DNA of 64,000 nucleotides, taken from NCBI GenBank assembly GCA_030374765.1, contig JARGXX010000100.1:1426001-1490000 (forward strand), written 5' to 3'. The position numbers and the translations under genes were made by a program. Positions 7,247 to 58,338 of this stretch are shown here, piece after piece. The notes under the pieces were generated by a model. The model ran no database searches and was not told the DNA's origin. It worked only from the letters and a program-made list of their open reading frames with translations. This stretch comes from Agarophyton chilense. Taxonomy: Eukaryota > Rhodophyta > Florideophyceae > Gracilariales > Gracilariaceae. Every line of letters begins with the position of its first letter. Position 1 is the stretch's first letter.

Positions 7247-7940
7247 ATGAGCAAACTTCCGTCTTACGTGGTCAATCCACCCACGTCCTATGAATATCTC
7301 GGCAACCCTCCGATTCAGCAGACTTCTGCAACATTTAGAGGTTCCGCTCCCATATACCGAAATGCCATTTTGCAGCAACCGGCTTCCAGTCCTGGTCCTG
7401 CAAACCTTTCCTCCACAGCAACTGTTCTGCAACCTGCGTCCTCTTCCGTACAGAGGTTCCCACATTACGCGGACTTCTTCGGCCGAGACCCCCTGCAGTA
7501 CTCTGCATTATACGCGTGAGCACCTTGGTTTTTCCCTGCGGCGGTTGGCGACGAAGCTCTGATGAATCAGTATGTGGCCGCCGGTCGCCTTTCCAATGGT
7601 ATCCCATGGCATAAGTTGTTTACAACAGATTGGCTGAGCCATTGCGCCCTTCCAATCACGCCGACTGGACATACACGAGCCAATTGCTCCAAATGCAGAC
7701 GCACTCGTTGACGAGATGCAAGAAACCGATCACGACGAAGAGCCAGAAGAAATCATCCTCGAGGATCCCGCTTTTGGTGAGAACGACGGCATAGAGCTAG
7801 TGTTCCCTGCAGCGATGAAGAGCGCTGTGCCTGAGCCTGTTCGACGCGCAGTGGTTTCCCACGATGCCAAGCTTGGCAATTTGAGGCAGTTCCACGAAAA
7901 CGCTGGGATTCCTTCCCACTTTGTTCAAGGAAATCGATAG
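7247..7940 (+). pseudogene. E2 antisense gene (aORF), internally deleted remnant
   Basis: This runs opposite to E2 gag-pol. From the ATG at 7247 (MSKLPSYVVNPP) the frame reaches SALYA, a TGA at 7517-7519, then continues in frame as APWFFPAAVGDEALMNQYV and TTDWLSHCALP to a stop near 7713. These align with APWFHPTAVRDDELIDSYV of E3 and APWFHPLAVHDED of E4. The ~330-residue middle present in E3 and E4 is missing. A C-terminal piece follows in another frame (7716-7940) with LRQFHENAGIPSHFVQG, matching IARFLREVGLRPSEISG in E4. It is a clear but dead copy of the same extra gene. Confidence 0.75.
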
Positions 7941-8051
7941 TAGATGCTAAATATCTTGCGCTCCTCGATGGGTATCAACTCGGATAACCCAAACCTCTAA
8001 CTTTCTTGCCTGAGGGCACTGTAACAAACCGACTAGCGATATTCTTGAGAT

Positions 8052-17025: not shown

Positions 17026-17597
17026 CTCCTGCTTTGGATTGACGACTGCACCAAGTCTGCAAATGAGCAGACGAAGGCCATGAAATCCGAGCTTGGTGCC
17101 CTCAAGAACGCTGACGGTCCAGCACGTTCTACAAGTTCCCAGAAACAGAAGCCATGTAACAGTTCTGGCGCCATAAAGTCTCATGGTAACGCAGTAAATC
17201 TACTACAGGACCCTCATGAATCCAATTAAGATGCCCCATCCTGTATTCTCACCGTGTCAGACGGCAGCTCGTTCCTACAGGCTACCAGAGGGTGCGATAA
17301 TGGAAGTGGGGACAGCATTGTTTCCCCTGGTTTCGCCGAGCGAGCTGCCCTTCAGGGATGGATAGAATCAAGTCAATCGTACGCGTGCACCTCAAAGTGG
17401 ATCTCAGGAGAGGAGCTCAGCCTCAGACATTCTAGTTTTCACGGACATGGAAAGTTCCATGCACAGTATTCCAACTTGTCTCTGGAAGCCTTGCCCTGGC
17501 CAACATCACCTACCTCATTTCCGATGATGACCTCTCCTTTGAGGAGCTTCTGAATGGCTTGGCTGTGATACAAAACCTTCGGGTGGACACATAGACT
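17026..17597 (+). pseudogene. pol: E1 protease region, decayed
   Basis: LTVSDGSSFLQATRG and CDNGSGDSIVSPGFAERAAL look like an aspartic protease with DNGS in place of the DTG/DSG triad. The rest is split over two frames (HLKVDLRRG, ISDDDLSFEELL). Assignment rests on position before RT and on the triad-like motif. Confidence 0.5.
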
Positions 17598-19415: not shown

Positions 19416-19418
19416 CGA

Positions 19419-23573: not shown

Positions 23574-24760
23574 CATGTCGTACTGAACCACATAAACCTC
23601 AACAAATTCCAACGCATGGCCAAAACCACCACTCTCCCGATCCTCCCCACATCCCTCAAAAACCCACACCCCCAGATTACCGGCTCCACATGCCCTCCCG
23701 CCAAACAGACCCCCCATCCTCACAAACCTACGAAGCACGAATACCCCTCGGCTCCTTTATCAGCAGTGACACTTGTGAACCATTCAAACCCCCGTCACGG
23801 CACGGCAACATCCACTTCGTCACTTACATAGACGTCAAGAGCCGGTTCCTCATCGCCTTCTTTATCCTCGACCGCTCATCAGTCCAACAAACAACCTCGA
23901 TGGCCATTTCCTTCATAACAAAACAACACCAACACACTCCTACCATCCACCGAACCGACAACGCCAAGGAATTCCCAAGCAACAAAACGAACAATTTCGA
24001 CAACTCCTTTGGGCTCCACTTTCGGTCAAACACCCCGCATCAACCATAAGAAAACTCCATAGCCGAACGTATTAAGCCCACAATTGGCACCGCCATACGC
24101 TCAGCCTTACACCATTCAAACCTGGACCATTTCTTCTGAGAAGACGCTATGAAGGACGTCATATATAAGTACAACATCACAATCTACGACACCACCGTTA
24201 CATCTCCATTCCAATCCTGGTACAATCAAGCCCCTCAAATACCGAAACTCTTTGTCTTCGAACAGCTGGGCAGTATCCCGAATCACCAGCACCACAAGAA
24301 GAACCTCGAAGCGCATGCAGATCCAGCACGTTTTATGCACAATATATCACCGACCCACATATTTGCACTGAACCTCCGCACCAAAAACTACCAACACCTT
24401 CGAGCAATCGACTTTCAACAATACTACCACCAGCTTGACCCCATCTATCACAAAACCCACGCCTTTCATTCTGCCGCCCATATCAGACAACAGGCGCCGC
24501 TCACCGTAGATCCCAACACCCCACCAACGACATCCATTCCACATGCACACCAATACCCGGACTTCACACACTGGGCAGCAGCGCACGATACAGAACTAGA
24601 TACCCTTGGTAACACTGGAACAATTGAATGGACCTCCGATTCGGAATTGCCCCCATACCAAACTCATTCCACTGAAAATGACATACAAGTACAAACGCAC
24701 CGACACCGGCCATATCGATTGATACCGTGCTTGCTGCACAGTCCCGGGGGACAGAATTAA
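23574..24760 (+). pseudogene. pol: Copia integrase and linker
   Basis: FVTYIDVKSRFLIAFFILDR holds the first Asp region, HRTDNAKEFPS the second, and after a TAA the ENSIAERIKPTIGTAIRSAL segment holds the Glu helix. The linker ends in TLGNTGTIEWTSDSELPP, the W-rich part before RT. Two stops and one frameshift. Confidence 0.8.
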
Positions 24761-26169
24761 ACCCCTTTCGTACATTTTGACCCGAACAAAGTAACCACCT
24801 ACACCGCGGAACGCCCCTCTATCCGCACGATATTATGTCTGGCTGCCACTAACAACCTGGTTATGGAACAGTTTGACATTTCATCTGCGTTCTTACATGA
24901 AAATTACCACAACACCTCCGTCATATATGGCCGTCAACTCCCGCACTTTAACGGATCGTTCAAGCACTCATGTAGCGGCGGCGAACTCATCCGGAACCTC
25001 TACAGCACACCCTCTGCATCACACATCTACTTAGAGAGTCTCTCTCAAGTTCTTTTATCCCAAGGGTACACTCAAACACACAGTGATTTTGCCTCTTCCT
25101 CAAACGAACCAGTGCAGGATACATTTTCATCTCTATCACAATCGACGATTTTTTCGTGGCATTCCCATCCAGAACTCCAATCGACGACCTCTACACCGAG
25201 TTACTAACACGATATAACATCAGACTCCTCGGCGAATCCAAACTGTTTCTGAATTGGTCTGTTCGGAGATACCCGGACGGGTCTCTACACATTGAATAAC
25301 CCCACAAAATCCGGAGCATCCTCCACAAACACAAGTTACACCAGTGCAACCCGAAACCTACACCTTCTGTCGACACTTCAACCACTAATTTGGACAAACT
25401 ATCCATTACACTTTCCCCCGAGAACGCCCAAAAATTGAAGCAAACAGTCGCAGAACTCCAGTATATTGCGGACTCTACGCGCCCCGATATCGTCCATGCA
25501 GTCAGCCGGTTAGCCGCAGCCATGCACGCTCCCAAACAGAAAAACTGGGGCCAGGTCCGATATCTCCTCAACTACTTGCGGGGTACAGAAACACACGGCA
25601 TATTCTACAATCATTCTCCATATCAGCCTCTGGTTTCCTACGCGGACGCTGGGTTTGCAAACTCACATGACCGGAAATCGTACAGCGCCATTGTACATCT
25701 CCTCAATTCCAGCCCGATTATGTGGCAATCAACCAAAGAGCAAATCGTAGCTCTTTACACACGCAAAGCCGAGTATGTAGCTGCTTTCTCTGCAGCTCAA
25801 CAGACTCTCTGGCTGTCACGAACCCTTATCGATCTCGGTGTTGTCCCTCCACAACCAACCAAACTACTCGTCGAAAATATGTTCGCTATTCAGGTTGCTA
25901 AGAACACCGCCCCCACCAAGCGACGGAAGTACATAGATCTACGCTTCCATCACCTCCAACACCTTGTGAGACAACAGCGCATCTCCATAGAACACGTACC
26001 GAACTCCGCCAAGCTCGACGACCTCTTAAAAAAGCGGCTGAAGAAGCCCCAATTATTCAAGCTTGTCACCAAACTCAACATCAATTCCCGGCCCCGAGAG
26101 GCCTCTCATCAGCTTACTGGGAACTATCAGACCGCCCAACCTTCTCACGCTTATGAGAGACCTCGCTTC
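24761..26169 (+). pseudogene. pol: Copia reverse transcriptase and RNase H
   Basis: RT: MEQFDISSAFLHENY (copia block QxDVxxAFLxG), then the catalytic box readable as ITIDDFFVA near 25140 in a shifted frame, and LLGESKLFLNW. RNase H (25390-26259): LQYIADSTRPDIVHAVSRLA, YLLNYLRGTETHGIFY, SYADAGFANSHDRKSYSA, ALYTRKAEYVAAFSAAQQTLWL and RRKYIDLRFHHLQHLV. The RNase H part is the best preserved piece, with 289 codons open into the 3' LTR. Confidence 0.9.
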
Positions 26170-35125: not shown

Positions 35126-35340
35126 CAAAGAAAACTCGGTACGTTTGCTTTTTCCAGTCAGCTGTATCGCGCTGCTCAATGCGTCAGTCGTTGAATAATG
35201 GCGAATGTCGTTACATCTTCCGGAATGAGAATGCTGTGGCGTCAGCTTCTGCGTAGTGGCACAAAAGTGCCCAAATCAGCGGAAATCTGTGCGACGACGA
35301 TTGGGTAGATAATTAATATCGCTACCGTGTGCGAGATGTA

Positions 35341-35476
35341 CTGCCGGAATCCCCCGTGGGAATTACACCCCACACTACGGGTGGAACGGAGGGCTCTGTC
35401 TCTGAGTCTGCCTCCCCCAGGGAGCAAGGCTTCGAACACCTTGAGAGCACTTCCCGTCGCCGGGTTTTGCTCCACA
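35341..35476 (+). repeat. E3 5' LTR remnant
   Basis: Equals 46199-46334 of the 3' LTR, 134 of 136 bases identical. Similarity stops sharply at 35341, showing a deletion or a 5'-truncated event. Confidence 0.9.
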
Positions 35477-35703: not shown

Positions 35704-37734
35704 ATGTCGCCGCCTACCCCTGGTTCCAGGACTGGATCGAACCGTCAAGCGAATTCAGTGCCCCTGGCCCCGCCTAGGTCGAGGAGCTCAATTCCCGAAG
35801 ATCGGAACGATTCTGGTATCGATCCGGACACTCGGAGAGCACCCTCAGTGGTTTCAGGTCCTCGAGAGGTCGTGGCTGTGGGCCCAGCTCCAGTGGTGGA
35901 GACCCCCTCAGCAGCACCCCGAAGTCGGGCCGACCCTGAATTACAGCGCCTGGAGACTCGAATCGATATCGCCAACGTGGCTCACGTCGAGCTCCTTCAG
36001 GAGGTTACTACCCTCCGCCGCAAGGTGGAGGACGCCCAGGTGCGGGGAGTCGCCGATGACCTTCGTACCCTGAGGAGGGATGTGAACTCCCTTTTGGAAA
36101 GCTTTGGTACCCCTGGGGTCTTTGTCCAGGAGTACCAGAGCCTCGTGGAGGAACACCGCGTGCAAGCGGAACGCTTCCGAGCTCGGCTGGACACCCTCGA
36201 GGCCATTATCCGTATGGACGGAGACACAGAAGCCTCGAAGGATAAACCAGACGTTTCGGAAGACGAAGAACACCGCTCCGCTAAACGGGACTGCCGCAAG
36301 TCCAAGAAGAGGGTTCACCTCCAAGAGGATTTATCGGATTCCGATCCCAATCGCTCGTCATCGAGTTCGTCGTCCGAATCTTCGGATAGTGAAGAAGGAC
36401 GCCGGTCATCCCGGGCGACTCGGTCGAAGGCTACTTACACCTCTCAAGGGGCAATCCGTACCCGGAAGAAGGGTAGGAAACACCTTGGATTAAGGGAGCT
36501 GAAGCCGACAAATCCTCTCTATCGGAAGCTGCTATCGTACCGCTATTACCGGTTGGATAACCCTTCGGGAAATTGAACATCCCGCAGAACGGGTAAGGTC
36601 AAGGACTACATCAAAAGACTGAGCATCACCCTACAGAAGAGGGAGTTCACAGGAACAGACCCAATTCTGGTGCTCGATTTCCTTGCGAGGTTCGTCCAGG
36701 AGGCTGACATCCTCGGTATGAGTGAAGCGCAAGCGTGTCTTGCATTACCCTATTTCTTAAAGGGGATGGCTGAAGACCAGTTCAACTCCGTCCGTGGATC
36801 ATCCCGAGCCTCGGAAAGAGGAGTCACGTGCTGGCCCGAAGCGGTGCTGTACCTCTTGAGGTCATACGCTACTGGAAATGCGATTCAGGAAGCAATCCTT
36901 GCATTAAGGGATACGCGGCAGAAGCCGATGGAAACCGAAACGGTGTATTCAACTCGCTTGAATAAAGCGTTTCACCGATGCGGGAATGTATTACCCGCCT
37001 ACGAGAGATGCACCATGTTTGTGGATGGTTTGGACCCCTCGATAAGGGCATTGGTTGCCCGACATCGGGAAGAGAAGCGCAAGCTGACCTACTTGGAACT
37101 GGTTCAGTACGCCCAGGGTGAGGGAGATCCTCTCCATGCCCGGCAGAACCGAAAGAGTCGGCCGACACATGCACTCCTCGCCGATGGAGGTAACTCGTCT
37201 TTGTCACTCGCAGGAGGCCCTGCCCCTGTGGGGGTCAATGATAACATTCATTTCATGGGAAGTAACCCCGAATCTATGGGTACGTCTGAGTTGCCGTCGA
37301 CATCTGCTCCGACTACGGATGAAGACCCTGCGCTCTTTACCCAAGGACGGAGGGTGCCAGCCGCATCGCTACCTTTTGCGAATACCGCTGCTCGGTTCTC
37401 TCGCCCGGGATGGAGGGATACAGCACCACGTCGCGTGGATTCACGTCCACAACCGAACCCGGCAGAGCTGATTTGCTATTTGTGTTACCTCCGTGGTCAC
37501 AAAGCACCAGACTGCACATTTCCCCTGCGGGAGGGTTCAAGAATTATCGCTCAGTACGAGGCTCTGACCCCTGAGGAGAAAGCTCGGGTCCCGAGTAGGT
37601 CCTTTGAGGAACAAAGGATACTCCGAGCTCACCTTGCTGACAGGGATACAGAACTTGTACCCGCGAACGGGGAACAACCGGTCCCCTTCGAGGCAGCTGC
37701 ACCGAATTCGGTGGGGTCCGCTTCGAAAAACTAA
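35704..37734 (+). CDS. gag: E3 Gag (one in-frame stop)
   Basis: A single frame from ATG 35704 (MSPPTPGSRTGSNRQ) to TAA 37732-37734, broken by TGA 36574-36576; 677 codons in all. Domains: coiled coil around residues 80-180 (LETRIDIANVAHVELLQEV), Ser/Asp-rich basic stretch, capsid region (FTGTDPILVLDFLARFVQEA, DILGMSEAQACLALPYFL, GVTCWPEAVLYLLRSYAT, CTMFVDGLDPSIRALVARH) and a CCHC knuckle CYLCYLRGHKAPDC. It would form the virus-like particle and bind RNA. Colinear with E4 gag, where the TGA position is not a stop. The gene ends in a frameshift signal. Confidence 0.88.
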
Positions 37735-37759
37735 ACTTGGGAGTCTCCCCTGCGGGAGG
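37725..37759 (+). promoter_or_regulatory. E3 -1 frameshift signal between gag and pol
   Basis: The last gag codons read TCG AAA AAC TAA; GAAAAAC (37725-37731) can serve for -1 slippage. Twelve bases on lies the hairpin TCTCCC-CTGC-GGGAGG (37744-37759). Pol is in the -1 frame and starts at this point. E4 has the same design with the canonical GGGAAAA. Confidence 0.65.
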
Positions 37760-40700
37760 GGCGTCTTCTAAGCCGGAGTTGAAGACGCCCGAGGCGCTCC
37801 AGCTTCGCTCCCGAGCTGTGACTATCCTTTCAAGGAGAACGGCTGACACCGACGTTAACTCGGGATACTTTAGTGTCCTCCGTCGCCTGTGGATACGGTC
37901 CCGTAATCTCCGTATTCCGGATCGAGTTATGGTAATGGCCAAGCGGAATTATAAAGTATTCGCCGACTTCGACCTGTCCAACCAGTTTATGGTTCGTCAA
38001 ATATCTGTCCTGGATACAGGAGCCGCTCCTAACTTAATTCATGTTGAATTGTTACCCTCGCTGCTCCGGGTTCAAGTTCGTACCGGTCCACGTTTGGATA
38101 TCGCCGATGCGAACAACAACCCGCTACGGACACTGGGTACAATTTCCCTCATGGTGAGGTTAGGCTCCTATCTCGTTCAGCTAGAGTTTATTGTATGCAA
38201 GTCACTTGCAGTACCAGTCATACTGGGTTGTGACTTTTGCGACCGCTTCGTGGAAGCCATCCGTCCTCGGAATAGAACTGTGGAACTCGAAGACGGGTCT
38301 ACGATCCCAATCGTTCGTAAACCCTTACAGGGAGCAGCGCTAACACGCGTTCCTCTCCCTGTCGCGCAGGAATCTGTGCAGAAGGACCCGGTGTCTACAC
38401 GGGTAAAGGTTGGGAAGTCAGTGGCTATCCCGCCAGAAACCCAGGTTTGGGTCACAGTTGTTACCAAGCAAATTGGTGTGCATGTGGTACAACCGAACCC
38501 GTCTCTGTATACGCGGCGTCAACTCGCCCTTGCGAATGGGGTTGTCTCCGTGGAACCGGATAAACCTTTCCAGGTTCTGGTAGCCAACTTTGGAAAGACA
38601 ACGCAGCATTTGGTCAAACACCAGATCCTGGGTTCTGTTCTTCCACACCCGCATGCGGTCGTACCTACAAAGATCTCTATCGCAGAGGTCCTTGGTGTGG
38701 CGGACCCTAAGGAGGGGGAGGACACTGCCGAAATCGCGGAAGACGGTGAGCATACGACTGCAGCTCCACACGCTGAACACTTTAAACCTCAGGAGGTTAC
38801 GGCCCCTATCACAGGAGCAGACCAGACGGATCCTGGTCAGGAATTGGAGAAATGGGATCTCAACCATGTACCCGCATCTCATCGGGAGAAGCTGAGGCAC
38901 ATGCTTCGTGAATTTACCCCCATGTGGGATGGTTCCCTTGAAACTATTGGGACTACAGAACACCGCATCGACTTGTTACCGAACACTCGGCCTATTGCCC
39001 AACACCCTTACAGGGCTGGACCGAAAGCTTGGGAAGAGGAGAAATCTCAGGTGGAGAAGATGCTTCAAGCGGGCGTAATTGAACCTGCCCAGTCCGCTTG
39101 GGCCTCACCAGTGGTGTTAGTTCCGAAACCGGATGGATCGTGGCGTTTCTGCATCGATTACAGACGCCTGAACGAGGTAACCATTAAGGACGTGTACCCG
39201 ATCCCTCGGATGGACGAATACATCGACTCCCTTGGGAGCGCTACTGTTTTCTCTACCCTCGACGCCAATTCGGGCTACTGGCAAGTCCCTATTAGGGAGG
39301 AGGATCGAGACAAAACGGCTTCCGTGTGTCATCAAGGACTTTTCCGATTCCGGAGGATGCCTTTTGGGTTGACAAATGCCCGCGCAACGTTTCAACGGGC
39401 GATAGACATTCTGTTGGCTCCCTTCAAGTGGAGGACGTGTCTAGTGTATTTATACGACATTATTGTCTTCTCCAATAACCTGGATGACCACCTCGAACAC
39501 GTCAGGGACGTAATGAAGATACTCCGCGACGCGGGAATCACCTTTAAACTCACGAAGTGCGAGTTTTTCACGGATTCGGTTAAGTATCTGGGTCATATCA
39601 TCCGTCACGGACAGCTTCCAATCGATGAAGTACGACTGAAATCCTTGAAGGAAGCAAAACACCCAAAAACTCAAACGGAGTTGCGATCCTTCTTAGGTCT
39701 GTGTAACGTGTATCGCCGATTCGTCCCGAACTTTGCGGATATTGCCACCCCCCTCAACAGGCTCCTGACGAAGGGACAACCAGTTGAACTGGAACCTTTT
39801 GGCGACGCGGAATCGTCTGCCTTCACGGCACTGGTGAATGCCGTAACATCACCGCCAATCTTGGCTCTACCCAATCCTGGGCTCCCTTACGAAGTGGACA
39901 CCGATGCTAGTGCAAACCAAGTAGGGTGTGCACTGTTCCAATCCTCTGAGGATGGTGAACGTCACCCTATTGGGTACTGGTCACGTTCCCTGAATGTCCA
40001 TGAAAGGAACCACTCGGTCTCCGAGAAAGAATGTTTAGCCGTTGTGTGGGCCTTAGCTACACTTCGCCCCTATCTGATGGGTACTCGTTTCAAAGTCCAT
40101 ACGGACCACGCATGCTTGCGTTGGCTCCTGGAGATCTCCGAACCCTCGGGCCGCCTTATGCGCTGGCGTCTCCGACTGTCGGAATTCGACTTTGAGATCC
40201 TGTACAAGAAAGGGAAGCTGAACACTTAGGCTGATGCATTATCCTGCTTGGGAACCACAGCGGAAACGGAACCCTACGAGGACGATGACATCCCATGTTT
40301 TATGGTATCGGACCTTGAGGGAGGAGCTCAACCGCTGACGGATGATGTTTGTGACGATATACTCGTCAACGAGAGTCTGGATTCGCCGACCGGCTCTTTT
40401 ATACCTATCTCTCCAGAGGAGATGATACTCCAGCAACAGCTCGACCCATTCTGTACACGGATTCGGGCTCGCCTCAACGGAGGATTTCAGTTACCTTTCG
40501 AGGACGACGATCAGGGTTACCTAATCAGGACAGTCGGACCTCGCCCGAGGATAGTGGTGCCGCACACCCTACAACAGAGGGTATTAGACCTCACTCACTA
40601 TGTGAAGGTTGGCGCCCACCCCGGGGGAAGAAAACTGTACCTCACGTTGAGAAGGGACTTTTACTGGCCGGCAATGGCATTCGATTGTTACGCCGTCAGA

Positions 40701-42269
40701 CGGGCCTGCGCCAATTGCGCCAAGAATGACGTCAAACTTCGGAAGCACTCTAAGAAGTTGACGCTGTTCCCGGCACGGGCTCCACTCGAATTCGTGGCCA
40801 TAGACATCCTAGGGGAGTTTATCAGGACGCCCCGAGGTCATCGGTATCTGCTTGTCATTTCTGACAGATTCTCTAAGCTAACGAGAACTGTGCCGCTGAA
40901 GCGGATCACCGCCGCTACCGTCGCGCAAGCGTTCGTGACCCATTGGGTGTTCGTATATGGACCGCCGGTGCAGTTGTTATCCGACAACGGAGGGCAATTC
41001 GCATCAAAGTTCTTTCAGGATGTATGTCGAATCCTTGATGTAAGGAATTTATTTGTTACTACGTATCACCCTCAGGGGAATGGCTAGGTTGAGAGGTTTA
41101 ACCGCACGATACTCAACGCTTTGAGATCGTATGTTGCCGATCACCCCGAAAATTGGGACTTGTACACAGACGCTATCACGTATGCATACAACACCCAGGT
41201 ACATCGGGTTACATCGTTATCCCCATTCGAACTGGTACTGTCGAGGACACCGCCGCCGGTCGCCATCGAGGCTCAACCGACGCTGTCAACGTACCCGTCA
41301 CCGGGATTGTACCGAGAAGCCTGCAAGGAATGGCTTACGAAGATGGTGCCGATAGCCCGGAAAGCAATGGACAAAGCTCAACGCGCCTACAAGAAGGACT
41401 TTGACAATCGGGTTCGCAAACCTCTACCTCAGGTGGAGCCCGACGACTTCGTCTTCCTTCGAAAGGAATACTACAATCCTGGAAAGGAACGTAGGCACAA
41501 GCTTTCGCCAATTGTGGACGGACCCTATCGGGTGGTTTCTGTAGACCCGGACACGGTGGTATTGGATATCGCTAACCGCCACGATTGGATCTCCAGGGAC
41601 CGCATCACACGAGCGCCCAACCCAAATGTGGAAGTGGTGTCAGCACCAACGCCCTCCACAGGGGATGATTCAACGAAAGTTAACCCGTCAGGCGGAGATT
41701 CGAACACCCGCCCCGTTATACTTCCGCACCCGGAACGTGGTTTAACCGACCTACCAGAAACTTCGGATACTACCGAACCTGGGCCCGCTCCCTCAAGGGC
41801 CCATTCAACGAACTCTTACAGAGTTACTGCCCCACCGGAGGTAATCAAGCCTCCTGGCTCTCCGCCTGAGGAGGGGGAGGAGGACTTAGTTCCTTCGCAG
41901 GACGATGTTTCGGCGTCAGCCAGTCGCCTTAACAGGGAATCTAGTTCTCACAGTGAGACGGCGAGCCCGACCGAGCCAGCGACAGAGAAGTCACAACCCC
42001 GGCGTATGGGTAGCGACATCACCGCCGACCCAGCCGAGCACGACGTCAGAAAAGATGACGAAACCCCGCCTAGGGAGAGTCGTGTGGAGAACTTCGCACC
42101 CGGAACGCCTACAGAGCCGACGATCACCCGCCGCCGCGGACGAGACACTGAGGTGTCGCACACTCAAACACCGCTTTCTCGGGAACGAGCTGTGTCAGCG
42201 AACCCGCACGGAGAAGATCTCGACGACGAGGTTGACCAAATTTGGCTCTCCGTTATGGAATGGGAATAG
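37735..42269 (+). CDS. pol: E3 Pol: protease, RT, RNase H, integrase (two in-frame TAG)
   Basis: One frame from the gag overlap to 42269, with TAG at 40227-40229 and 41085-41087, each in place of a Gln codon. Domains in order: protease (VLDTGAAPNLI, VPVILGCDFCDRF), RT (FCIDYRRLNEVTI, STLDANSGYWQVPI, RMPFGLTNARATFQ, and YLYDIIVF where YLDDIIVF is expected), RNase H (EVDTDASANQVGCALFQ, EKECLAVVWAL), integrase HHCC (HPGGRKLYLTLRRDFYWP, CANC), core (AIDILGEFI, SDNGGQFASKFFQ, HPQGNG) and GPY/F-like HKLSPIVDGPYRVV. The D-to-Y change in the RT catalytic box would inactivate it. No ATG is needed: the start is by frameshift from gag. Confidence 0.9.
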
Positions 42270-42794: not shown

Positions 42795-43085
42795 GTGTGT
42801 CTAGACTTTACGTTGATACCCTCAAGGGAACTAGAGCGTTCCAAGATGGAAGAGAAGCCCGAACAGGGAAAAGTGTACCTGCAGGAATTCGTTATCGATC
42901 GCATCGTGCGTCACATCTACACCCCCGAGGGAGAAGTTCGCTACCAAGTCCGATGGTACGGATTCTCGCCTGATGAGGATACAGTGGAACCCATTGAGCA
43001 CCTTCCGAGGTCTAAGGTTTTATCCTATCACCGACGCGCTCGGGTAACCTTGCCTCCAAATCTGGATCGTGCCCAAGTCGGGTAA
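42795..43085 (+). pseudogene. pol: E3 chromodomain end of Pol
   Basis: Same frame as pol but 525 bp after the 42269 stop, with further stops between. VYLQEFVIDRIVRHIYTPEG, VRYQVRWYGFSPDEDTVEP and IEHLPRSKVLSYHRR are a chromodomain with the aromatic and acidic residues in place. In E4 the same domain is fused at the Pol end. Confidence 0.85.
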
Positions 43086-43473: not shown

Positions 43474-45201
43474 CTACGGAAAGCCCGAGGAGGGACCCGC
43501 CCCACCGTTGGGATTCTGACCCTGATGGTACGCCGAGGCGAAAGCCAACATCTGGCTCACATCCGTCATACCCGGGAGAATAGAAATGCCTGCGTTCACG
43601 AGGCCTTGTCGCACACTATCCGCTTGCGGAGTGGCAACCGGCGCCTGCGCAAGGGTGTCACACCCCACCCGGGGGGAGCAGATGGACCGCCACCGGATGC
43701 ATTCGCCGCCGCAGCTGAGGTCGTTCCCACTGGTTGGAAGGGTGCAGATGGCTCCACAGGCAGTACTCCACTAGGAGCTGGCATGTCGTTATCCAACACT
43801 GGATCGTCCAGGTCTACTGGAGGCTCGTACTCGTAATCGTCGGTATAAATGAACCCCGTCGGGTGTCCCACCGGCATCGGTCGAGGCAAGTCCATCAGCG
43901 CCCGTGCTTGCGCCACGCTGATGCGAACCCCTTCGAAGGGATTGTAATAGACCCAGTTACCGGAGCCCGGATCGTACCGGCCAGGAGACTTGTCTCGCGC
44001 GGGTCCTTCCCCTGCGGGCTGATTTTCCACTGGAACTCGATCCCATTGGGTGTTGTCGATCACGTCCAAGATTGGATACAGGTCTTGCACGTGGCTGACC
44101 AAACCCAACGCTGGGACAAGGTCGATCTGAAGGGATGATGGTTCGTAGCATCGGAGGAATATACCAGATATGGAAATGGTCATGAGCATCCCAGAGGAGG
44201 TGCGCCGCTACGCGAACTGCCCACTCGGCTGCAACGAGGACCCAGTATCCCGAGTTCGGGTCGTGCATCAAACGAGACCCGATATAGTAGAGGCACGGGG
44301 GCAGTTCAGCAAAGCACCCTCGGGGGACCTCGACCTTACTCCACCAAGCTGGAAGGTGCACGAATCGCCCAACCTTCGCCGTGTTATGGGTACGCTCCAT
44401 TTCCACGTGAGGATACGGGACAAGGAACCCGAAACGGGAGCGCGAGCGGCGCTCGAAGCGCACGCGTCGATCGAACCCATACTGGGGAAACTGCCGTTGA
44501 AGGTACCTGAATTCAGCCCGAAGGATGGGACGACTCCATTGGAGCATATCTTCTCGGAGAGGAAAACCCGGTCCGCGGAACTCAGCTTCGGGAAAGGCTG
44601 CCAGGTTATCCCCGTAGGAGACCTCACCGTACGTGCGGTAATAGGCGACATCGAACCCGTACTCCGGGGGAACCAGATGGTCAAAGCGTGACCTCTCCAA
44701 TCGCTGGTAGGCCAGAGCCGCCATCGCTGCGCGCGCCTTGTCCAGGGACTCCCCGCAACCGCGGTATAGATACTGAGGCTCTATGGCTACCCGCGCCCTC
44801 CAATCGGGAGAACGTACAACCTCGACAGGTAGGCCAACCGGCAATAAGCCGTTCTCCACGTAGGAGTCGATGAGCTCATCGTCACGAACCGCGGTCGGAT
44901 GGAACCACGGAGCGCGGGAATATATCACCGGACCGGTAAGGGGATTCCACCTTCGAAAGGATCCGTTTGAGATCCAACCTCTGGAGTTTGCTACCAGGGG
45001 CATCGCATGAGCGGAGTTCCACGCCACCGCTTTAATGTCCAAATCCTCCTGAGGATGTCGGTTGCTCGCCGAGGCGGGAGGTTCGGTACCTAACGGAGCC
45101 GCATCAAAACCGGAGAAATATCCACCCTGTTGGGGAGGTTCGTTGTCCGCCGGCGCGGAGACCGACGGCCCCAAGAGTGGGTTGATGACGTATGGGTTCA
45201 T
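43474..45201 (-). CDS. E3 antisense gene (aORF), one frameshift
   Basis: Starts at ATG 45201 (MNPYVINPLLGPSVSAP) and stays open to 43596; the conserved end continues in another frame to 43474 (VRQGLVNAGISILPGMTDVS), so one frameshift lies near 43660. About 575 codons. Conserved with E4: APWFHPTAVRDDELIDSYV, FDVAYYRTYGEVSYGDNL, RPILRAEFRYLQRQF, GRFVHLPAWWSKVE, CFAELPP, SGYWVLVAAEWAVRVAA and IWYIPPMLR, then an acidic Tyr-rich segment (DDYEYEPPVDLDDPVLDN). Rich in Trp, Tyr and Arg; no signal peptide or membrane segment is obvious. I recognise no family. It lies antisense between chromodomain and 3' LTR; a TATA box is 140 bp upstream. Confidence 0.85.
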
Positions 45202-45340
45202 TCCCTTGAGAGGGCTGGTTGAGACTGCTGTTGCGAGAAGTTGCTAATCGCCGAAGGTCGGAGGAGTAGAAGAAAGTTGTACCGATGTGCCGGTTTTATG
45301 GCGATCCTCAGAAGTGGTGAAGGACCCCATTGGGAGAGAA

Positions 45341-45350
45341 GTATATATAG
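45341..45350 (-). promoter_or_regulatory. TATA box of E3 antisense gene
   Basis: Minus strand CTATATATAC, 140 bp upstream of the antisense ATG and outside the LTR, so the antisense gene probably has its own promoter. Confidence 0.55.
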
Positions 45351-45396
45351 TGACCGGAAAGCGAGACACCCGCGGCTCGGAATGTTCTTCCTCGTC

Positions 45397-45411: not shown

Positions 45412-46334
45412 TGTAGAACAACGCCCAGTTAGGGGATACTTGAAGATGCAACTCATAGAATGAGGGTTGAACCCTCCGAGGGTTATGACTATGATCCCCT
45501 CTAAGGTGTGCTGAGGTGGCACTGTTTTCTGGTTAGAGTTCGCCTATGAAGGGAAGATTCGGATGGCCCATGGTTGGATTGGCCCCGCTATACACGTGGC
45601 TTAATTTCGGCACCGATTTTCGGATATTTGTTAGAACGTTGGACTTTTGGGCCCTGACAGTGGGATCTCCACGTGTATGGCCCTGAGCAGGTGTGCACTA
45701 CTGTAATTTGTAGAGTTTAGTTAGTGGGCCCTACTTAGGGAGGCGAGATCTGGCAGTCCGAAGCTCAGAGTAAATAGGAACCAAGGTTGGTCTTCGATAC
45801 CTTTAGAGGTTCTTCGTCGCCATCGTTTCGGCCTTACAACCCGGAACGGGCTCAGGTTAGCAACGCCTGCGTAGAGACACGACTCCACTTGGAGAGTGCC
45901 CACGTTTGGGTTCCGTGCAACCATCGCCTTGGGACCGCTCAGACGACCTGCGTGCACGATACCCCATGGGGGTTCTGCTTACTTGTTGCGTGCTTTTTGT
46001 GTTTCCTTTCGAGGACAGGTTTTCGCCCCTGTATTGGGTTTCTTTTGTTGTTTCGCCTCTTTTCTGGTTCTCGGGTCCGGTGCCTGTTAGTGCCCGACCC
46101 TCGCCCCGTTTTTCCTCTTCGCCGGATTTTCCCCCATTCTTTGGGATACCCAGACCCATTCCCGACCCAACGGTTTCTACCCCTCACCTCCGTCGGTGCT
46201 GCCGGAATCCCCCGTGGGAGTTACACCCCACACTACGGGTGGAACGGAGGGCTCTGTCTCTGAGTCTGCCTCCCCCAGGGAGCAAGGCTTCGAACACCTT
46301 GAGAGCACATCCCGTCGCCGGGTTTTGCTCCACA
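45412..46334 (+). repeat. E3 3' LTR (923 bp)
   Basis: Begins TGTAGAACAACGCCC after the purine tract and ends GCTCCACA at the junction with E5 gag. Several long open frames here are LTR shadows. Confidence 0.88.
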
Positions 46335-46923: not shown

Positions 46924-46928
46924 ATAGT
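46924..46928. repeat. E4 target-site duplication, left (ATAGT)
   Basis: ATAGT precedes the left E4 LTR and recurs at 58339-58343. On the minus strand it is ACTAT inside the E5 codons for Asp-Tyr. Confidence 0.9.
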
Positions 46929-47790
46929 TGTAGGACAATGCCCACAAGGAGGAAAACCTACGAAGACGTCCGGATCTTCCTCTCACGAGGTAACCGGCGC
47001 GGTAGAGCCCTCCCAGGGATTGGCGCGCAATGCCGGGTGTAAGCCGGAGCCGAACCGTCGCGACGGGCGCAGGGAGGCTGAAAGAAGCCGAGAATATCCG
47101 CCGAAGCGGTGCTTGCGTATCCTCTGAGGAGGCAAAACCCACGAGAGTGGCGAGCACGACAGGTGTCAGTGCGAGCCGCAAGAGCGGGAGTAGCCCAATG
47201 AAGGGGAGGAAAAGGGAAGGAAAATGGGAACGGAGGCAAGAGGGCGAGGTTGACCACGAGTCGCAAGAGGGGACTCGGGAATAGCCGGCATTGCCGGGTG
47301 TAGCAAACTGTATACACGGGCGGAACCACGAAAGCGGGAATAGATACCCAGCACACGAAGGCTGCTTGAACGTCCAAGGGGGTTGGGAAGCCGTCCACCA
47401 CGGGAAATTCCTCCGTAAGGAGCTGTATATCCGCGCAGGCGGTTCGACCCAGAGCCAAGATCTGGAAGACCAAGATCACCCTTGTTGGGGAGACTTTACT
47501 GGACCGGCGGCCGCGAGGCCGGCGGCCTAAGTACTGTAGTCACCGTAGAATAGAATAAATAAAGTCTATCCTAAATAGCTAAATGTCCGTCTACAAAGGG
47601 GCCAATCTGGCGGCCACGTGTCGCGCGGGCGCTGCGGCCACGTGTATGGCACCCGGTTTCGCCGGTGCATCACCGGCGTTCCGGCAACGCCGTGAAAACG
47701 GATTACTCCTACTCATAACGAGGTTGCACGCCGGAGGCTCCGGAAAAAACTTAAGTCCCCAAAAACCTCCCTGGAGGACGTTGCTCTTCA
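46929..47790 (-). repeat. E4 3' LTR (862 bp, left copy)
   Basis: Ends TGTAGGACAATG and CTCTTCA on the plus strand. It contains AATAGAATAAATAAAG on the plus (antisense) strand near 47550. Confidence 0.93.
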
Positions 47791-47960: not shown

Positions 47961-49630
47961 ATGTCCAACCCCGATCGTCATAACACATCCGCGACTCCCG
48001 CCCTTGGCGGTTCCACCGGCTTCCGGTCCGCGCCCCACCCTGGGGATGTTACCAACCGAACTCCGGCCGTAAACCTCGCGTACGAAGACCGCTGTATTGG
48101 CGCCCGCTTTCGCGGACAGGCGGACCCACCGCAGTGGCCGACCTACGACGCCCTTGTGGGTGCAAATCCGAGAACTCGGCATGGCTCCGCGATGTTGCGG
48201 TATGCGCCTTGGTTTCACCCATTGGCTGTCCACGACGAGGATTGATCCAGTCCTACACCGATAATTTGGAGATGCTCCCGGGCGACCTGCCCGGCGTGGT
48301 GACCATGTCCTGGGATTGGCGTAATCGTATCGCCATCCCGGTACACCACATACTCCGCCGACGCGGTGTATCCTCTGCGGAGGCTCAGGCCGCGCTCGTG
48401 CGGATCGGTTATCTCAGGCACCATCGGGCGCCTTTCGAGTTCCCGATACCGCCAGAGGTCGAATTCGACGTCCACCTTTACCGCACTCGCGGGGAAATGT
48501 CGTACTGTGACCGTCTAAACGGATTGGAAACCCTCGCTTGGAGGGGCACACCGATCGCTCGGCAAGAAGCCCTTTGCTGGGTACGACCGATTCTTCGGGC
48601 AGAGTTCCGCTACCAACCGCGGCAGTCGCGCTCGAACTTCGTTCAGAACTTCATCCGCGATGAGCGGCGTTGGCGGGCCCGGACCGGGTATTTCGTACCG
48701 TACCAGAACACGGAGATTGAGCGCATCGCGCCTGCTCACCGACGTGGTCGGTACGTCAGTCTCCCAGACTGGTGGTCCTCCTTGGAGGCGTGCTGGGGTT
48801 GCTTCATTGAGCTGCCCCCAGTCTTCACCTATGTAGGGTCGTCGTTCTTGAACGATCCCCAGTCGGGGTGGTGGTTCGTCGTGGTAAGCGAATGGGCCGT
48901 CCGCACTGCGGCTTTTATCCTCGCTGAGGCGTACGACCAATACCGATTGTGGTACGTGCCACCGCGTGTGCGGGCTGCGATCCGCCGTTTGGACATGCGC
49001 ATCCCCCTCGGGGGCGAGGCGAACGAAGAAGAGATGCTGGGCCTCCTCGACTTTGTGGAGGGGGTCCAGTGGGATGAGGTCCCGCTGGAGAACTCCCAAC
49101 GCATTCAACCGCGTCGCAGGTCTGGCCCCGGACTCGGGAGGAATACAGCGCTAGCGGGGTATTTCATCTACTTCGACCCCTGGGATTACCACGAGAGCAG
49201 CTGCGAGGAAGCGGAAGCCAACCGGCATGCGCCGCGTGAAGTCCCGGCCGACCACCCGCGAGGGTATGTCGACTCGAGTGACTATTACCGCGACTATGCG
49301 GATGGTGACCCGATGGTCGACAACGAACCGGAGGATCTGGGTTATGCTCCGATGGAGGGTGACGAGTCCGGCGAGGCCGGTGAGGAGTCCGTTGAATACG
49401 GTGGTGCGGCTCCACCCGGGGCTGCTGATGCCGTGCGAACGGATTCCTATCCGACTCCATCGGTGGCGGGCCCGCCCGCAACTGTCGCTGACGCGGGGCG
49501 GGGCGAGGTCATCGCGCGCTTCCTTCGGGAGGTGGGGCTTCGCCCTTCCGAGATCTCGGGTGATGTGGCCGCCATGCGGGATGCCTTAGCCAACCGCCTG
49601 GGCGGGGGTCCACCTCGTGCGGAGGAATGA
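47961..49630 (+). CDS. E4 antisense gene (aORF), one 1-bp frameshift
   Basis: From ATG 47961 (MSNPDRHNTSATPALGG) the frame runs to 48245; a 1-bp loss at about 48241 moves the coding sense to the frame that ends at 49630. About 556 codons. Blocks shared with E3: APWFHPLAVHDE, LIQSYTDN, FDVHLYRTRGEMSYCDRL, RPILRAEFRYQPRQS, GRYVSLPDWWSSLE, CFIELPPVFTYVGSSF, SEWAVRTAAFILAEAYD and LWYVPPRVR. The C-terminal third is acidic and Tyr-rich (DSSDYYRDYADGDPMVDNEP) and ends in a helix, EVIARFLREVGLRPSEISGD. The frame is open upstream into the LTR. Function unknown. An AATAAA follows 60 bp after the stop. Confidence 0.85.
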
Positions 49631-49962: not shown

Positions 49963-52900
49963 TTATCCCTCTTGGGCGTTTACCAGCGTGGCTGGGAGTG
50001 CGGTCCCCGCAAGGCGGTGGTATCGCATTACCGCGGAGCGCGGGAGGTGCTCGATGGGCTCCGGGGTGTCCCACTCCGGCCCGTATCCGTACCAGCGGGT
50101 CCGGTACTGGAGCACCCCGTGCCCATCGTAGCTATGTCCGACGATTCGGTCGAGGACGTACTCCTGCACGTAAACTTGCCGGCCTTGCCGGGTGGTGGTG
50201 ACCCGAGCCTCAGCGCTGCGTGGTGCTGGGCTCGTTGTCACCTGTTCCGGGTCACCCGGTTTGTCATTCCGCTCTGCGGTTGTTGCCGGGTTGCCGGGGC
50301 TGCCGTACCGCTTCGGGGAAGTTGCCGGCGCGGCCGGGTTGTGTTTCCGCTGAGCGGTAGGGGCTTCCCTGAAGTCCGCTCTTACCGCGAGTTGGCGGGG
50401 GTCCTTCCGTCTTGGTGACGGTTCGCGGGAGGCCTCCGCTTGATTTGCAGCATGCGGCGTTCCCATTGGTGGGCAGTTTCCGCTGTGCGGTGCGCCGTGG
50501 GCGGTGATTGGTTCACCGTCCCGGCAATCCGCCTCCGCGGGGTGGCTGTCAGCCAATGACCGGGATGCCGGGTGCCCATTGGTCCGATCTCCCGCCCGGG
50601 TCACGTGACCTTGAGGACGAGTGGTCGGGCCGTCGCGGACGGTTGGCTCCGATTGTTCGGCAAAGAAGGCGGTTTTCGACTTGTCGTTGCGCCCCTTTTG
50701 CCCCATGGGGTTCGTACCGTTCTCAACGGAGTGGCTCGCTAGACCTGCTTGCGCAGCGCCCGCCGGAGTACCGGTATCGACCGAAACGCTAGGTGTGTGA
50801 CCGCGAATGTGCGGGGAGCCCTCAGTTGCTCCCACGCGATGCGGAGCGTCCGTAGGGTCTCGCTTCCCGGCTTCGGGTCTTCGAGCGCCTTGGTCCCCCT
50901 TTCGGGGTTGCGTGGCGGTCGGGTTGACCGCCGCGTCCCGCGGGAGCGGATTGGCGTCCGGCGACGGTGCCGGTTGCCCGCTCGGGGGCCTTGCCCGGGG
51001 TGTCCGGTTAAACTTCCGTTGCGACAGCGATGCTTCCGTGATTGAGCGGGTCCCCTCCCCCTCCTTAGACGGAGCGACGGGTGATGGTGGGCTAACCGCA
51101 TGGCGGGTATAAATACCGCTGCGCGGCGCCCGTAAAGGTAGCTGGCCGCGAGGGCCAGGTGTTTCCGGCATTGCCGGTGGTTCCGATAGAGTCGGTATAT
51201 CGGAGAGACCCCGTGAGGGGTGCGGTACCACGGCGGGGCGTGGTGCCACCATTGTACCCGTGGTATCCGAGGCCGTTTCGACGGGGGCTGATGCGTTTTC
51301 CGCCTGCGGTGGTGGGGCGGCTACGATGCGGTCTTGTGAAAGACGTTCGTGGTCGCCGTTCTTGTCCACCACAACGATGCCGGGGAGGGAGAACACGACC
51401 CGGAACGGACCTTCAGTGACAGGCGAGAGCTTGTGACGCTTGTCGGTCCGGGGGTTGTAGTACTCCCGGCGAACGAACACGTAGGTTCCCGGCTTGGGCG
51501 GTGCCGGTAGTGGTCCGCGTAAGCGGTTATCAAAATCCCGCTTGTAGGCGGCCTGGGCACGTTCCATGGACTTCCGGGCGACCGGTACGAGCTTGGTAAT
51601 CCAGTTCTTCCACTTGAGGCGGTATTGACCCACGGATGGGAAAGAGTTGACCCTGTGTTGGGGTTCGACCGCCACTGGCGGGGGTGTCCTGGAGAGCACA
51701 AGCTCGAAGGGAGTCAGACCGGTTGTCCGGTGAACCTGCGTGTTGTAGGCGTAGGTGATAGCATCAGAATAAATGTCCCACGTCATTGGGTGATCGGATA
51801 CGTAGGAGCGTAGCGACGCGAGTAGGGTGCGGTTGAAGCGTTCCACCTGCCCGTTTGTTTGCGGGTGGTAGGTGGTAGAAAACAGGTTCTTGACGTCGAG
51901 GATGCGGCAGACGTCCTGGAAGAACTTAGAGGCGAACTGCTTACCGTTATCGCATAGAACCTCTATCGGAGGGCCATAAACGAACGCCCAGTGCGTAACG
52001 AAGGCGTTAGCAACCGTGAAAGCGGTGATCTTCCGTAAAGGTACGGTGCGCACCAGCTTCGAAAAGCGGTCAGTGATAACCAAGAGGAACTTGTTTCCCT
52101 TGCGCGTCTTGAGTAGAGGCCCGAGAATGTCGATTGCGACAAACTCGAGGGGCGCCCATGCGGGGAAAAGCTTCATCCGTTTGGAGTGCTTCCGGAGTTT
52201 CACCCGGTTCTTTGCGCATTGGGTGCCGAACTGCACCGTAGCGTAGCAATCCACCGCCAAAGCGTGCCAATAAAAGTCCCTTCGCAGGGTTAGATAAAGT
52301 TTTCTCCCACCGGAGTGTCCTCCGAGGGTCGGGTAGTGTGAGAGGTGGAGCACCCTGGTTTGCAGGGTGTGCGGGACCACGATCTGGGATCGGTGGTCCA
52401 CCGTCCGTACGAGGTACCCGATGTCGTTTACCTCGAACGGGAGGTCCTCTCCACCGTTTAGGCGGGCCCGTATGCGCGTGCAGAACGGGTCGCCGAACTG
52501 TTCTCGGATCATCTCCTCGGTGGAGATGGGTACAAAGGTCCCGGGTACGGGTGTTTCATTCTCGCGCGCTGCGAGTAGCTCATCCATTTCCATGGTGTCT
52601 TCCCCGGTTTCGGGCCAATCCGACTCCGTCGGTGTTTCCCCTTCCAAGGTAAAGCACGGGATCTCGTCGACCTCCGGGTCGGCAAGTGCTTCACCTGTGG
52701 TAGGTAATCGAGAGAGGGCGTCTGCTTGGGTGTTCTGGACACCCTTTTTGTAGACGACCTCGAAGTCGAGTTCCGCTAAGCGGAGGCGCCACCGCATTAA
52801 GCGGCCAGAAGGATCTGCGATGTTCAGCAGCCACCTCAGCGAGGCATGGTCCGTGTACACGGTGAAATGAACGCCCATGAGGTATGGGCGCAGAGTGGAT

Positions 52901-55206
52901 AGCGCCCAGACCACTGCGAGGCACTCCTTCTCGGAGACCGAGTAGTTGCACTCGTGGACGTTCAGCGTGCGGGACCAATAGCCAATTGGTTTGCGTTCCC
53001 CCTCGGGGGTGGTTTGGAACAGTGCGCCGCCCACCTGGTGGTCGCTGGCGTCGGTGTCGATGGAGTAGGGAAGCCCAGGTTTGGGCAAGGATAGGATGGG
53101 AGCTGTCGTAACTGCCTTAATCAAGGAGCGAAAAGATTCCGACTTATCGGTGGTAAATGGCGCAAGCTTTGGTGGTTGGCCCTTCTGCAGTAGCGCGTTT
53201 AGCGGAGCGGCGATATCCGAGAAACTTGGTATAAACCGTCGATAGACGTTGACCAGACCTAAAACGGATCGGAGCTCCGTTTGAGTACGGGGCTCCTTCG
53301 CCTCACTGAGGGACTTGATACGAACTTGTTCGATCATTAACCGTCCTGGACGGATGACGTGCCCGAGATACTTCACCGTGTCGGTGAAGAACTCGCACTT
53401 CCTCAACTTGAGGGTTATTCCTGCGTCTCGCAGTACGGTCATCACGTCCCGCACGTGGGTCAGGTGATCGTCCAGGTTTCTGGATAAGACAATGATGTCG
53501 TCCAAGTAGACAAGGCACGTGCGCCACTTGAAACGCGACATCAGTATGTCTATTGCCCTTTAAAAGGTGGCCGGTGCATTTGTTAAACCAAACGGCATCC
53601 GCTTGAAGCGGTAGGAACCCGAGTGGCAAACAAACGCGGTTTCGTCTCGGTCCTCTTCCCGGACTGGGACTTGCCAGTAGCCCCAGTTAGCATCCAGAGC
53701 CGTAAACACGGTAGCGTCCCCGAGCGAGTCTATACACTCGTCCATGCGCGGAATCGGGTAGGTGTCCCTCACGGTGACGGCATTGAGGCGGCGGTAGTCA
53801 ACGCAAAACAGCCACGTGCCGTCAGCCTTGAGAGCCAGCACCACCGGTGAAGCCCAAGGAGATTGGGCGGGCTCGATGACTCCAGCACGGAGCATCTTGT
53901 CCACCTGAAATTATTCCTCCTCCCGAGGTTTCGGTCCCGCCCTGTAAGGGGGTTGTGCAACCGGACGTGCGTCCGGTAGCAGGTCTATCCGATGTTCGGT
54001 TGTATTGATCTCACCCAGTGAGCCGTCCCACATTGTGGTAAACTCTCGTAGCATTCCGCGTAAGCGGTCCCGGTGTGAGACCGGTACATGACTCAGGTCC
54101 AGGTCCTCGAGGGCCTTGATCGGGTCTATCTTATCGTAGCTCGTAGTCTGTGCCCTGGTGTCAGGTGTGTGAACCGACGAGGTCGGAAATGCATCCGTCT
54201 TGACGGTTTTATCGAGCGCCAACTGCTGTGCCTCCCCGGAGGTTTCTGCACCGGATACCGGGAGACCATCCTTGGTAGAGGGAGTTATTCCGAGTACTTC
54301 GGCAGCCGTCACCTTTGTAGGGAGCATCGCGAGCGGGTGCGGCGTCACAGACCCAATTACATGGTTCTTTGCCAGCGTCTGGGGAGCCTTTCCCAGATTG
54401 GCAACCAACACCCTGAAGGGGGAATTCCGCGTGACTTGCACGATTCCGTTCGCAACGGTTAACTGAAATTTCTCGTACAACGAGGGCAAGGGCTGAACAA
54501 CCCGAAGACCGTGTTGACGGGAATTGACTGAAACCATAACCTGGCTCTCCGGGGGTATGGTGTCTGACGGGGCAACGCGTAGCTTCGTAGAATCCCGGTT
54601 CGCCGGTGTGGGTTCCTGCGCAGCAGGTAGAGGAACGTGTTTCCTCGATGCCCGCTTCAGCGGTTGACGAACAATGGGGACGGTCGATCTGTCCTCAAGT
54701 TCCACCTGCTTAAGGCGTGGGCGGATGGCGTCGACAAACCTGTCGCAGTAGTCACATCCCAGTATAACTGGCGCGGCCAGCGAGCGGCACACAATAAAAG
54801 TTAGTTTAACCACAATCCGCCCTAGCCTAACGACCAGGTCGATCACACCAGCCGTTTTCAACGGGTTGTTATTGGCGTCTGTGACGTCGGGTACCGTTTC
54901 AGAACGGATGAGTGACCGCAATGGCGGGGGTAAACCCGATTCCACAATAAAGTTCGGCCCAGCACCTGTATCCAGGACAGTGAGATGTCTCACCATAAAC
55001 TGCGTGTGCAGACCAAGGTCAGCGTAAACCTTGTAGTTACGCTTGGCCATTACCAAGACTCTATCCGGGATCCGGTTATTTCTAATCCGTATCCACGGTC
55101 GACGCAAAACACCGAGGTGTTTAGAGTCCGCGTCTGCGGTGTCCTTCCTTGTCAGGATTTTCACCGGGGAGCGAGGCATCGGCGCCTCGGGCGTCCTCAG
55201 CCTCAA
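49963..55206 (-). CDS. pol: E4 Pol with chromodomain (two in-frame stops)
   Basis: One frame of about 1748 codons with TAA at 53911-53913 and 53557-53559 only. Protease: VLDTGAGPNFI (~residue 78). RT: FCVDYRRLNAVTV, TALDANWGYWQVPV, RMPFGLTNAPATF, YLDDIIV intact. RNase H: SIDTDASDHQVGGALF, EKECLAVVWAL, YTDHASLRWLL. Integrase: HHCC (HLSHYPTLGGHSGGRKLY ... CAKN), D-D-E (IDILGPL, LCDNGKQFASKFFQ, TNGQVERFNRTL), GPY/F module HKLSPVTEGPFRVV. A Pro/Ser-rich linker of ~330 residues follows, then the chromodomain (YVLDRIVGHSYDGHG, QYRTRWYGYGPEWDT, IEHLPRSAVMRYHR). The N-terminus is made by frameshift from gag. Confidence 0.93.
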
Positions 55207-57473: not shown

Positions 57474-57476
57474 ATT

Positions 57477-58338
57477 TGTAGGACAATGCCCCGAAGGGGG
57501 AAAACCTACGAAGACGTCCGGATCTTCTTCTCACGAGGTAACCGGCGCGGTAGAGCCCTCCCAGGGATCGGCGCGCAATGCCGGGTGTAAGCCGGAGCCG
57601 AACCGTCGCGACGGGCGCAGGGAGGCTGAAAGAAGCCGAGAATATCCGCCGAAGCGGTGCTTGCGTATCCTCTGAGGAGGCAAAACCCACGAGAGTGGCG
57701 AGCACGACAGGTGTCAGTGCGAGCCGCAAGAGCGGGAGTTGCCCAATGAAGGGGAGGAAAAGGGAAGGAAAATGGGAACGGAGGCAAGAGGGCGAGGTTG
57801 ACCACGAGTCGCAAGAGGGGACTCGGGAATAGCCGGCACTGCCGGGTGTAGCAAACTGTATACACGGGCGGAACCACGAAAGTGGGAATAGATACCCAAC
57901 ACACGAAGGCTGCTTGAACGTCGAAGGGGGTTGGGAAGCCGTCCACCACGGTAAATTCCTCCGTAAGGAGCTGTATATCCGCGCAGGCGGTTCGACCCAG
58001 AGCCAAGATATGGAAGACCAAGATCACCCTTGTTGGGGAGACTTTACTGGACCGGCGGCCGCGAGGCCAGCGGCCTAAGTACTGTAGTCACCGTAGAATA
58101 GAATAAATAAAGTCTATCCTAAATAGCTAAATGTCCGTCTACAAAGGGGCCAATCTGGCGGCCACGTGTCGCGCGGGCGCTGCGGCCACGTGTATGGCAC
58201 CCGGTTTTGCCGGTGCATCACCGGCGTTCCGGCAACGCCGTGAAAACGGATTACTTCTACTCATAACGAGGTTGCACGCCAGAGGCTCCGGAAAATACTT
58301 ATGTCCCCAAAAACCTCCCTGGAGGACGTTGCTCTTCA
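57477..58338 (-). repeat. E4 5' LTR (862 bp, right copy)
   Basis: Partner of 46929-47790; ends at CTCTTCA before ATAGT. Confidence 0.93.

Follow-up and report, generated by a model that had tools for sequence, protein, structure and literature searches.

We analysed a window of 64,000 nucleotides from the red alga Agarophyton chilense (contig JARGXX010000100.1, positions 1,426,001 to 1,490,000) that contains several long terminal repeat (LTR) elements, among them E3 on the plus strand and E2 and E4 on the minus strand. In E3 and E4, an extra gene is read opposite to gag-pol in the space from the chromodomain to the 3' LTR, as the initial annotation of this DNA had described. The gene lies tail to tail with pol and starts close to the 3' LTR, which is the position of the aORF-3R class of antisense additional open reading frames (ORFs) between pol and the 3' LTR. 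The longest open frames are 428 amino acids in the E3 region and 548 amino acids in the E4 region, and these lengths were reached in none of 1000 dinucleotide-preserving shuffles of each region. The lengths of about 575 (E3) and 556 (E4) codons given in the initial annotation agree with a start at the downstream of two candidate ATGs, and its view that the two copies are colinear is borne out by 45.6% identity over 248 amino acids followed by 32% over 128 amino acids. It had also assigned one frameshift to each copy. This holds for E4 (near 48.2 kb); E3 has two, and the relative P0004, a protein of Gracilariopsis chorda, aligns with it first in frame -2, then in -3, and then in -2 again. For the proposed remnant in E2, the APWF block was recovered (positions and statistics in the table), and the C-terminal helix gave no significant match in the same search.

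Profiles of reverse transcriptase (RT), RNase H, and integrase and a C-terminal chromodomain were found in both E3 and E4. The chromodomain at the integrase C-terminus that characterizes chromoviruses scored above the PF00385 cut-off in E3 and just below it in E4 (23.3 bits; cut-off 25.1). Among PDB sequences, Ty3 matched the E4 pol best, which is consistent with the Ty3/gypsy gag-pol of chromoviruses. The gag profile matched E3 at 20.2 bits, below its cut-off of 24.1, and had no match in the E4 piece tested. Judged by their sequences, E3 and E4 are Ty3/gypsy elements with a chromodomain. According to excerpts of one study, gypsy elements that bear a chromodomain are not always chromoviruses (PMC12477816), and the chromovirus label used here is based on domain content.

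Table. Positions of the antisense gene and of associated element features in the window.
Feature	Position	Strand	Remarks
E3 antisense gene from downstream ATG	43474..45201 (ATG 45201, end ~43474)	-	Two frame changes in this copy
E4 antisense gene from downstream ATG	47961..49630 (stop 49628-49630)	+	One frame change near 48.2 kb
E2 antisense-gene remnant (APWF block)	7487..7651	+	38% identity over 55 amino acids, E 2.9e-7
Upstream ATG, E3-type gene	45302..45330 (29 bases from ATG)	-	Separated from the gene by a stop in the window copy
TATA-like box, antisense direction	45341..45352	-	CACTATA[CT]ATAC in 7/7 aligned E3-type copies; between gene and 3' LTR (start 45412); promoter role putative
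AT-rich conserved block inside E4 LTR	47554..47571	+	Candidate antisense promoter, weak
E3 gag-pol	36577..42269	+	Open in four successive pieces (gag, RT, RNase H, integrase)
E3 chromodomain, end of pol	42846..43082, stop 43083-43085	+	PF00385 35.4 bits, cut-off 25.1; convergent with antisense gene
E3 3' LTR	45412..46334	+	Start inferred from TG beside polypurine tract; end from 139-bp match to 35338-35476
E4 3' LTR	46928..47790	-	97.9% identity to 57476-58338
Open frame of E4 pol, chromodomain at its C-terminus	49963..53559	-	ORF and profile evidence
E2 LTRs	6283-7069 and 15676-16462	-	

The genome (79.76 Mb in 135 contigs) was then searched for further copies. Only the best candidates were scored, so the copy counts are lower bounds. 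All of the scored candidates matched, both with the E4 protein (79 of 79, the best of 1947 first-look candidates) and with the E3 protein (101 of 101, the best of 1983). The same was seen with the 55-residue piece from the E2 remnant (150 of 150, the best of 983), where 43 matches, the window's own included, were at 65% identity or more and 107 were at 47–60%, with open frames of up to 611 codons. Counted from the translations, identity between the E3-type block and the E2 piece is low, at about 39%, so the matches at 47–60% suggest one or more additional groups besides E2, E3, and E4. The gene lay opposite pol and beside the chromodomain in all 50 loci that were fetched by means of the gene itself. 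As an independent check, we made two genome searches, one in which the E4 chromodomain was the only query and one with 67 residues of the E4 gene, taking the best 150 matches of each. A gene match on the opposite strand was within 3 kb of at least 133 of the 150 E4-type chromodomains, and in 131 of these 133 pairs the start points were 1162–1212 bases apart. Reciprocally, 133 of the 150 gene matches had a chromodomain beside them. For the E4 type, to which this check applies, the gene is thus present in most copies of the family, another trait of aORF-3R genes.

Some copies have unusual arrangements. Gene copies at C68:3138541, 3147738, and 3156935 follow each other at exactly 9197 bp and those at C77:296249 and 305498 are 9249 bp apart, a regular spacing that probably reflects tandem arrays of whole elements with common LTRs. 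In locus L006, pol pieces flank one gene copy on both sides, and two gene copies at C117:1234742 and 1238210 lie within a few kb of each other in opposite orientation; both cases point to inverted or nested insertions.

Open frames of at least 600 codons are present in 79 of the 150 E4-type and 67 of the 101 E3-type best-scoring copies. With pairs lacking synonymous differences dropped, the median pairwise ratio of nonsynonymous to synonymous substitution rates (dN/dS) for the antisense gene is 0.46 (1269 pairs); for the E3-type gene, it is 0.56 (21 pairs). Conservation comparable to that of other element proteins is a further feature of aORF-3R genes, and the medians within pol are 0.52 for RT (120 pairs), 0.61 for integrase (55), 0.66 for the chromodomain (1023), and 0.68 for the linker (1171). 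Variants among copies are most frequent at the third codon position (177/169/264, p ~1e-6). When one E3-type core was compared with one E4-type core over 313 codons, amino acid identity was 43%, synonymous sites were saturated, and the differences by codon position were 140/110/211, with the third about twice the second. A deficit of stop codons (13 seen, about 30 expected) was left unused as evidence because the copies were chosen by protein score. Together, these data indicate selection on the protein read in the antisense direction, and the antisense frame is almost certainly a real, selected protein-coding gene.

Protein searches covered 5.8 billion proteins, of which the best 7,993–7,998 candidates by common words were scored per search. 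The best-scored matches were solely relatives in Gracilariales and other contigs. The E4 query matched a Gracilariopsis chorda protein at 60% identity with 99% of its length covered, and it also matched Gracilaria domingensis; three A. chilense entries, two of them partial, are 86–94% identical to an E3-type copy (36–42% of the query covered). The N-terminus of the protein is of low complexity and is followed by a core of some 330 residues, along which relatives at 26–62% identity align; then come an acidic linker and, at the C-terminus, a short conserved helix. In 19 aligned members, W177, R213, R232, E236, F274, R275, R294, R297, and P305 are invariant. An AlphaFold2 model of the core reached a predicted local distance difference test score (pLDDT) of 87.0 and a predicted template modelling score of 0.88 with a 21-row alignment that included eight more divergent relatives and omitted L052, L019, P0008, P0010, and P0011. 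An earlier model from 18 rows had a pLDDT of 54.2; none of its fold matches was under E 0.001 and they were given no weight. The good model had no PDB or viral fold match with Foldseek and VIA-align, and searches of Pfam, PHROGs, NCBIfam, and PDB sequences gave no family for the protein. We took as chance the stray weak matches to C_LFY_FLO (E 0.31) and phrog_7623 (E 0.34), the single-member matches to TMEM220 (E 0.037) and NF003405 (E 0.28), and PDB sequence matches at E 0.82–6.2. By these comparisons of sequence the antisense protein is a new family, in agreement with the initial annotation, which recognised none, and no description of the gene was among the papers listed in searches of the open-licence PMC literature. 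That annotation had also named three outcomes that would count against it: copies without the frame, random disruption without codon bias, and a match to a captured host gene. The first two did not appear among the genomic copies, nor did the third within the scored candidates of the protein searches, where the surroundings of the relatives were not visible.

Related copies have an additional in-frame ATG about 40 codons upstream of the downstream ATG. It is present in all seven aligned E3-type copies and is in frame in L051, L052, L054, and L056. In the E3 copy of the window this ATG is unusable, as the frame is closed between both ATGs and opens only at 45243. The predicted protein P0007 starts near the position of the downstream ATG. 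At TATA promoters, transcription starts some 30 bases past the box; from the putative TATA-like box of the E3 type, the downstream ATG at 45201 would serve. In the E4 copy of the window the corresponding upstream position is not an ATG and is only 48 bases from the LTR end, so that an E4 promoter would probably be in the LTR, where an AT-rich conserved block is a candidate. From the sequence features, it seems quite likely that the antisense gene has its own antisense promoter.

Several observations weigh against a functional antisense gene or limit what can be said about it. Among the matches listed, 17 of the 150 E4-type chromodomains had no gene partner; these may have one beyond the listed matches, as C21:592910 does in the search with the E4 protein. 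Because the copies were picked by best protein score, the counts are biased against broken frames and overstate intactness, and because the copies have diverged little, the dN/dS values also take in neutral decay since insertion. The E3 TATA-like box is about 10 bases ahead of the upstream ATG and fits the downstream ATG only, and the E4 promoter candidate is weak. Finally, the protein contains no known domain in the searches above, so its function gets no direct hint.

A tree of 19 cores, with a midpoint root for drawing only, gave information about age. Proteins of G. chorda, G. domingensis, and the host fell together in the E4-type group (support 100/100), and the E3 type was outside it. 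A second G. chorda protein, P0004, is outside the E4-type group and near the E3-type group, with a poorly resolved placement, and nine further relatives form a fully supported group on the opposite side of the tree. Because the E4-type group spans these genera, the E4 type would predate their split, barring transfer of elements from one species to another. Within the window, pol and the antisense gene give the same order of relatedness, with E3 and E4 closest and E2 more distant. Elsewhere in the window, positions 17595–20947 hold a further, distant gypsy-like element in which no antisense-gene match was better than E 1. Positions 22001–26000 have a strong strand bias (GC skew -0.46 and -0.33), and the frames there look copia-like and belong to a different element by reading of the translation only.

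Some elements have lost part of pol and still carry the gene. The pol part at about residues 340–774 is absent in 9 of the 20 longer loci (L031–L050), with the gene region kept; in L041, which is undeleted, this pol part is present. The deletion boundary is identical, at residues 339/775, in seven loci (L032, L033, L034, L039, L040, L045, and L048). This common deletion in E4 derivatives removes the end of RNase H and the integrase and retains the antisense gene, the frame of which is open over 619–673 codons in five of the seven. In L038 and L046, most of the RT part is also absent. The dN/dS of the gene is 0.44 in deleted copies (35 pairs) versus 0.49 in undeleted copies (45 pairs). Retention by derivatives that depend on integrase from elsewhere suggests that the gene helps the copy carrying it. 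Alternatively, the gene could have been maintained by recombination with intact copies, or decay could have had too little time, and we consider it doubtful that the gene acts preferentially on its own encoding copy.

Excerpted literature describes antisense additional ORFs between pol and the 3' LTR in Grande, RIRE2, Retand, PvRetro13, and the fungal element Boty. The gene studied here resembles the plant aORF-3R genes (Grande gene23, RIRE2, Retand ORF4) in place and conservation; the kind is known and the protein family is new. It is also like Retand in being kept in derivatives without integrase, since excerpts of PMC11963269 report Alopecurus Retand clusters that lack RNase H and integrase and keep TRP28 (one in the text, two in Table 1). 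Unlike the plant genes, it belongs to red-algal elements with a chromodomain and its core model has no PDB match. Grande gene23 itself has a promoter ahead of the gene, and its protein is nuclear (PMC7264820, in excerpt). From the description there, Boty of Botrytis and Sclerotinia is similar in having an antisense ORF in this place outside plants. HBZ of human T-cell leukaemia virus type 1 (HTLV-1) is likewise an antisense gene of a retroelement, and the HTLV antisense promoter is in the 3' LTR (PMC7264820, in excerpt). Pfam scans of the antisense protein gave no bZIP match. HBZ, by contrast, is a bZIP protein.

Common ancestry with the plant antisense proteins, the algal gene being a diverged relative of those of Tat/Retand (TRP28) or Grande with one ancient origin, would account for the identical place and orientation and for the retention in Retand clusters without RNase H and integrase. 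However, none of 19 members matched Transposase_28 (PF04195) at E 1, a domain confined to flowering plants according to excerpts of PMC11963269, and the elements here have a chromodomain and a red-algal host whereas the Retand/Tat elements belong to a non-chromovirus gypsy lineage of flowering plants (PMC11963269, in excerpt). We regard this as very unlikely. An independent origin from plant aORFs could be the case, as judged by the absence of detectable similarity only, with the plant proteins not compared directly.

An RNA role has been proposed for plant elements (PMC7264820, in excerpt), and it could be that antisense RNA matters here, through double-stranded RNA or transcriptional interference, with coding incidental. 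Alone, this would not predict protein-level constraint with saturated synonymous sites, which makes it very improbable as the whole explanation; both roles could coexist. Gene capture is known for LTR elements (PMC7264820, in excerpt), but a single transduction of a host gene, which then persisted as a passenger, is highly improbable given that E2, E3, and E4 all have the gene, that its divergence follows pol, and that the protein searches, within the limits given above, found no homologue outside elements. A structural or envelope-like protein would fit the position between pol and the 3' LTR and is barely plausible, since the gene is antisense, envelope-like ORFs are described as sense (PMC7264820, in excerpt), and no hydrophobic segment was found by hydropathy (highest 19-residue mean, 1.51 in 19 members). 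The antisense-gene regions are 56–63% GC, and such DNA can yield long antisense frames by chance, but a chance frame opposite a spacer is refuted by protein-level conservation in other species, together with the shuffles and the codon-position bias.

We therefore prefer, at roughly three chances in four, the explanation that these red-algal Ty3/gypsy chromodomain elements carry an antisense gene for an accessory protein, opposite gag-pol and tail to tail with pol. Transcription would start from its own promoter, beside the polypurine tract in the E3 type or in the LTR in the E4 type. A soluble protein in the host cell might then regulate or partner the element's own RNA or cDNA; by analogy with roles proposed for the antisense proteins of retroviruses and plants, such a regulatory or accessory role is possible at slightly less than even odds. 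The protein may favour the copy that encodes it, as the gene is retained in derivatives without integrase and is about equally constrained there. It is rather unlikely that all parts hold jointly, namely an independently invented accessory gene that predates the divergence of Gracilaria, Gracilariopsis, and the host lineage, with an unseen fold and a preference for its own copy that selects for retention even in integrase-less derivatives.

Descriptions of antisense genes in LTR elements have mainly concerned plants, a single fungal element, and certain retroviruses, and those of plants have no settled function. Red algae extend this to another major lineage of eukaryotes and offer many open copies, a defined family, a confident model, and integrase-less derivatives. 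With this family, the role and repeated origin of such genes become directly testable. In this lineage, an accessory gene of a distinct kind seems to have evolved.
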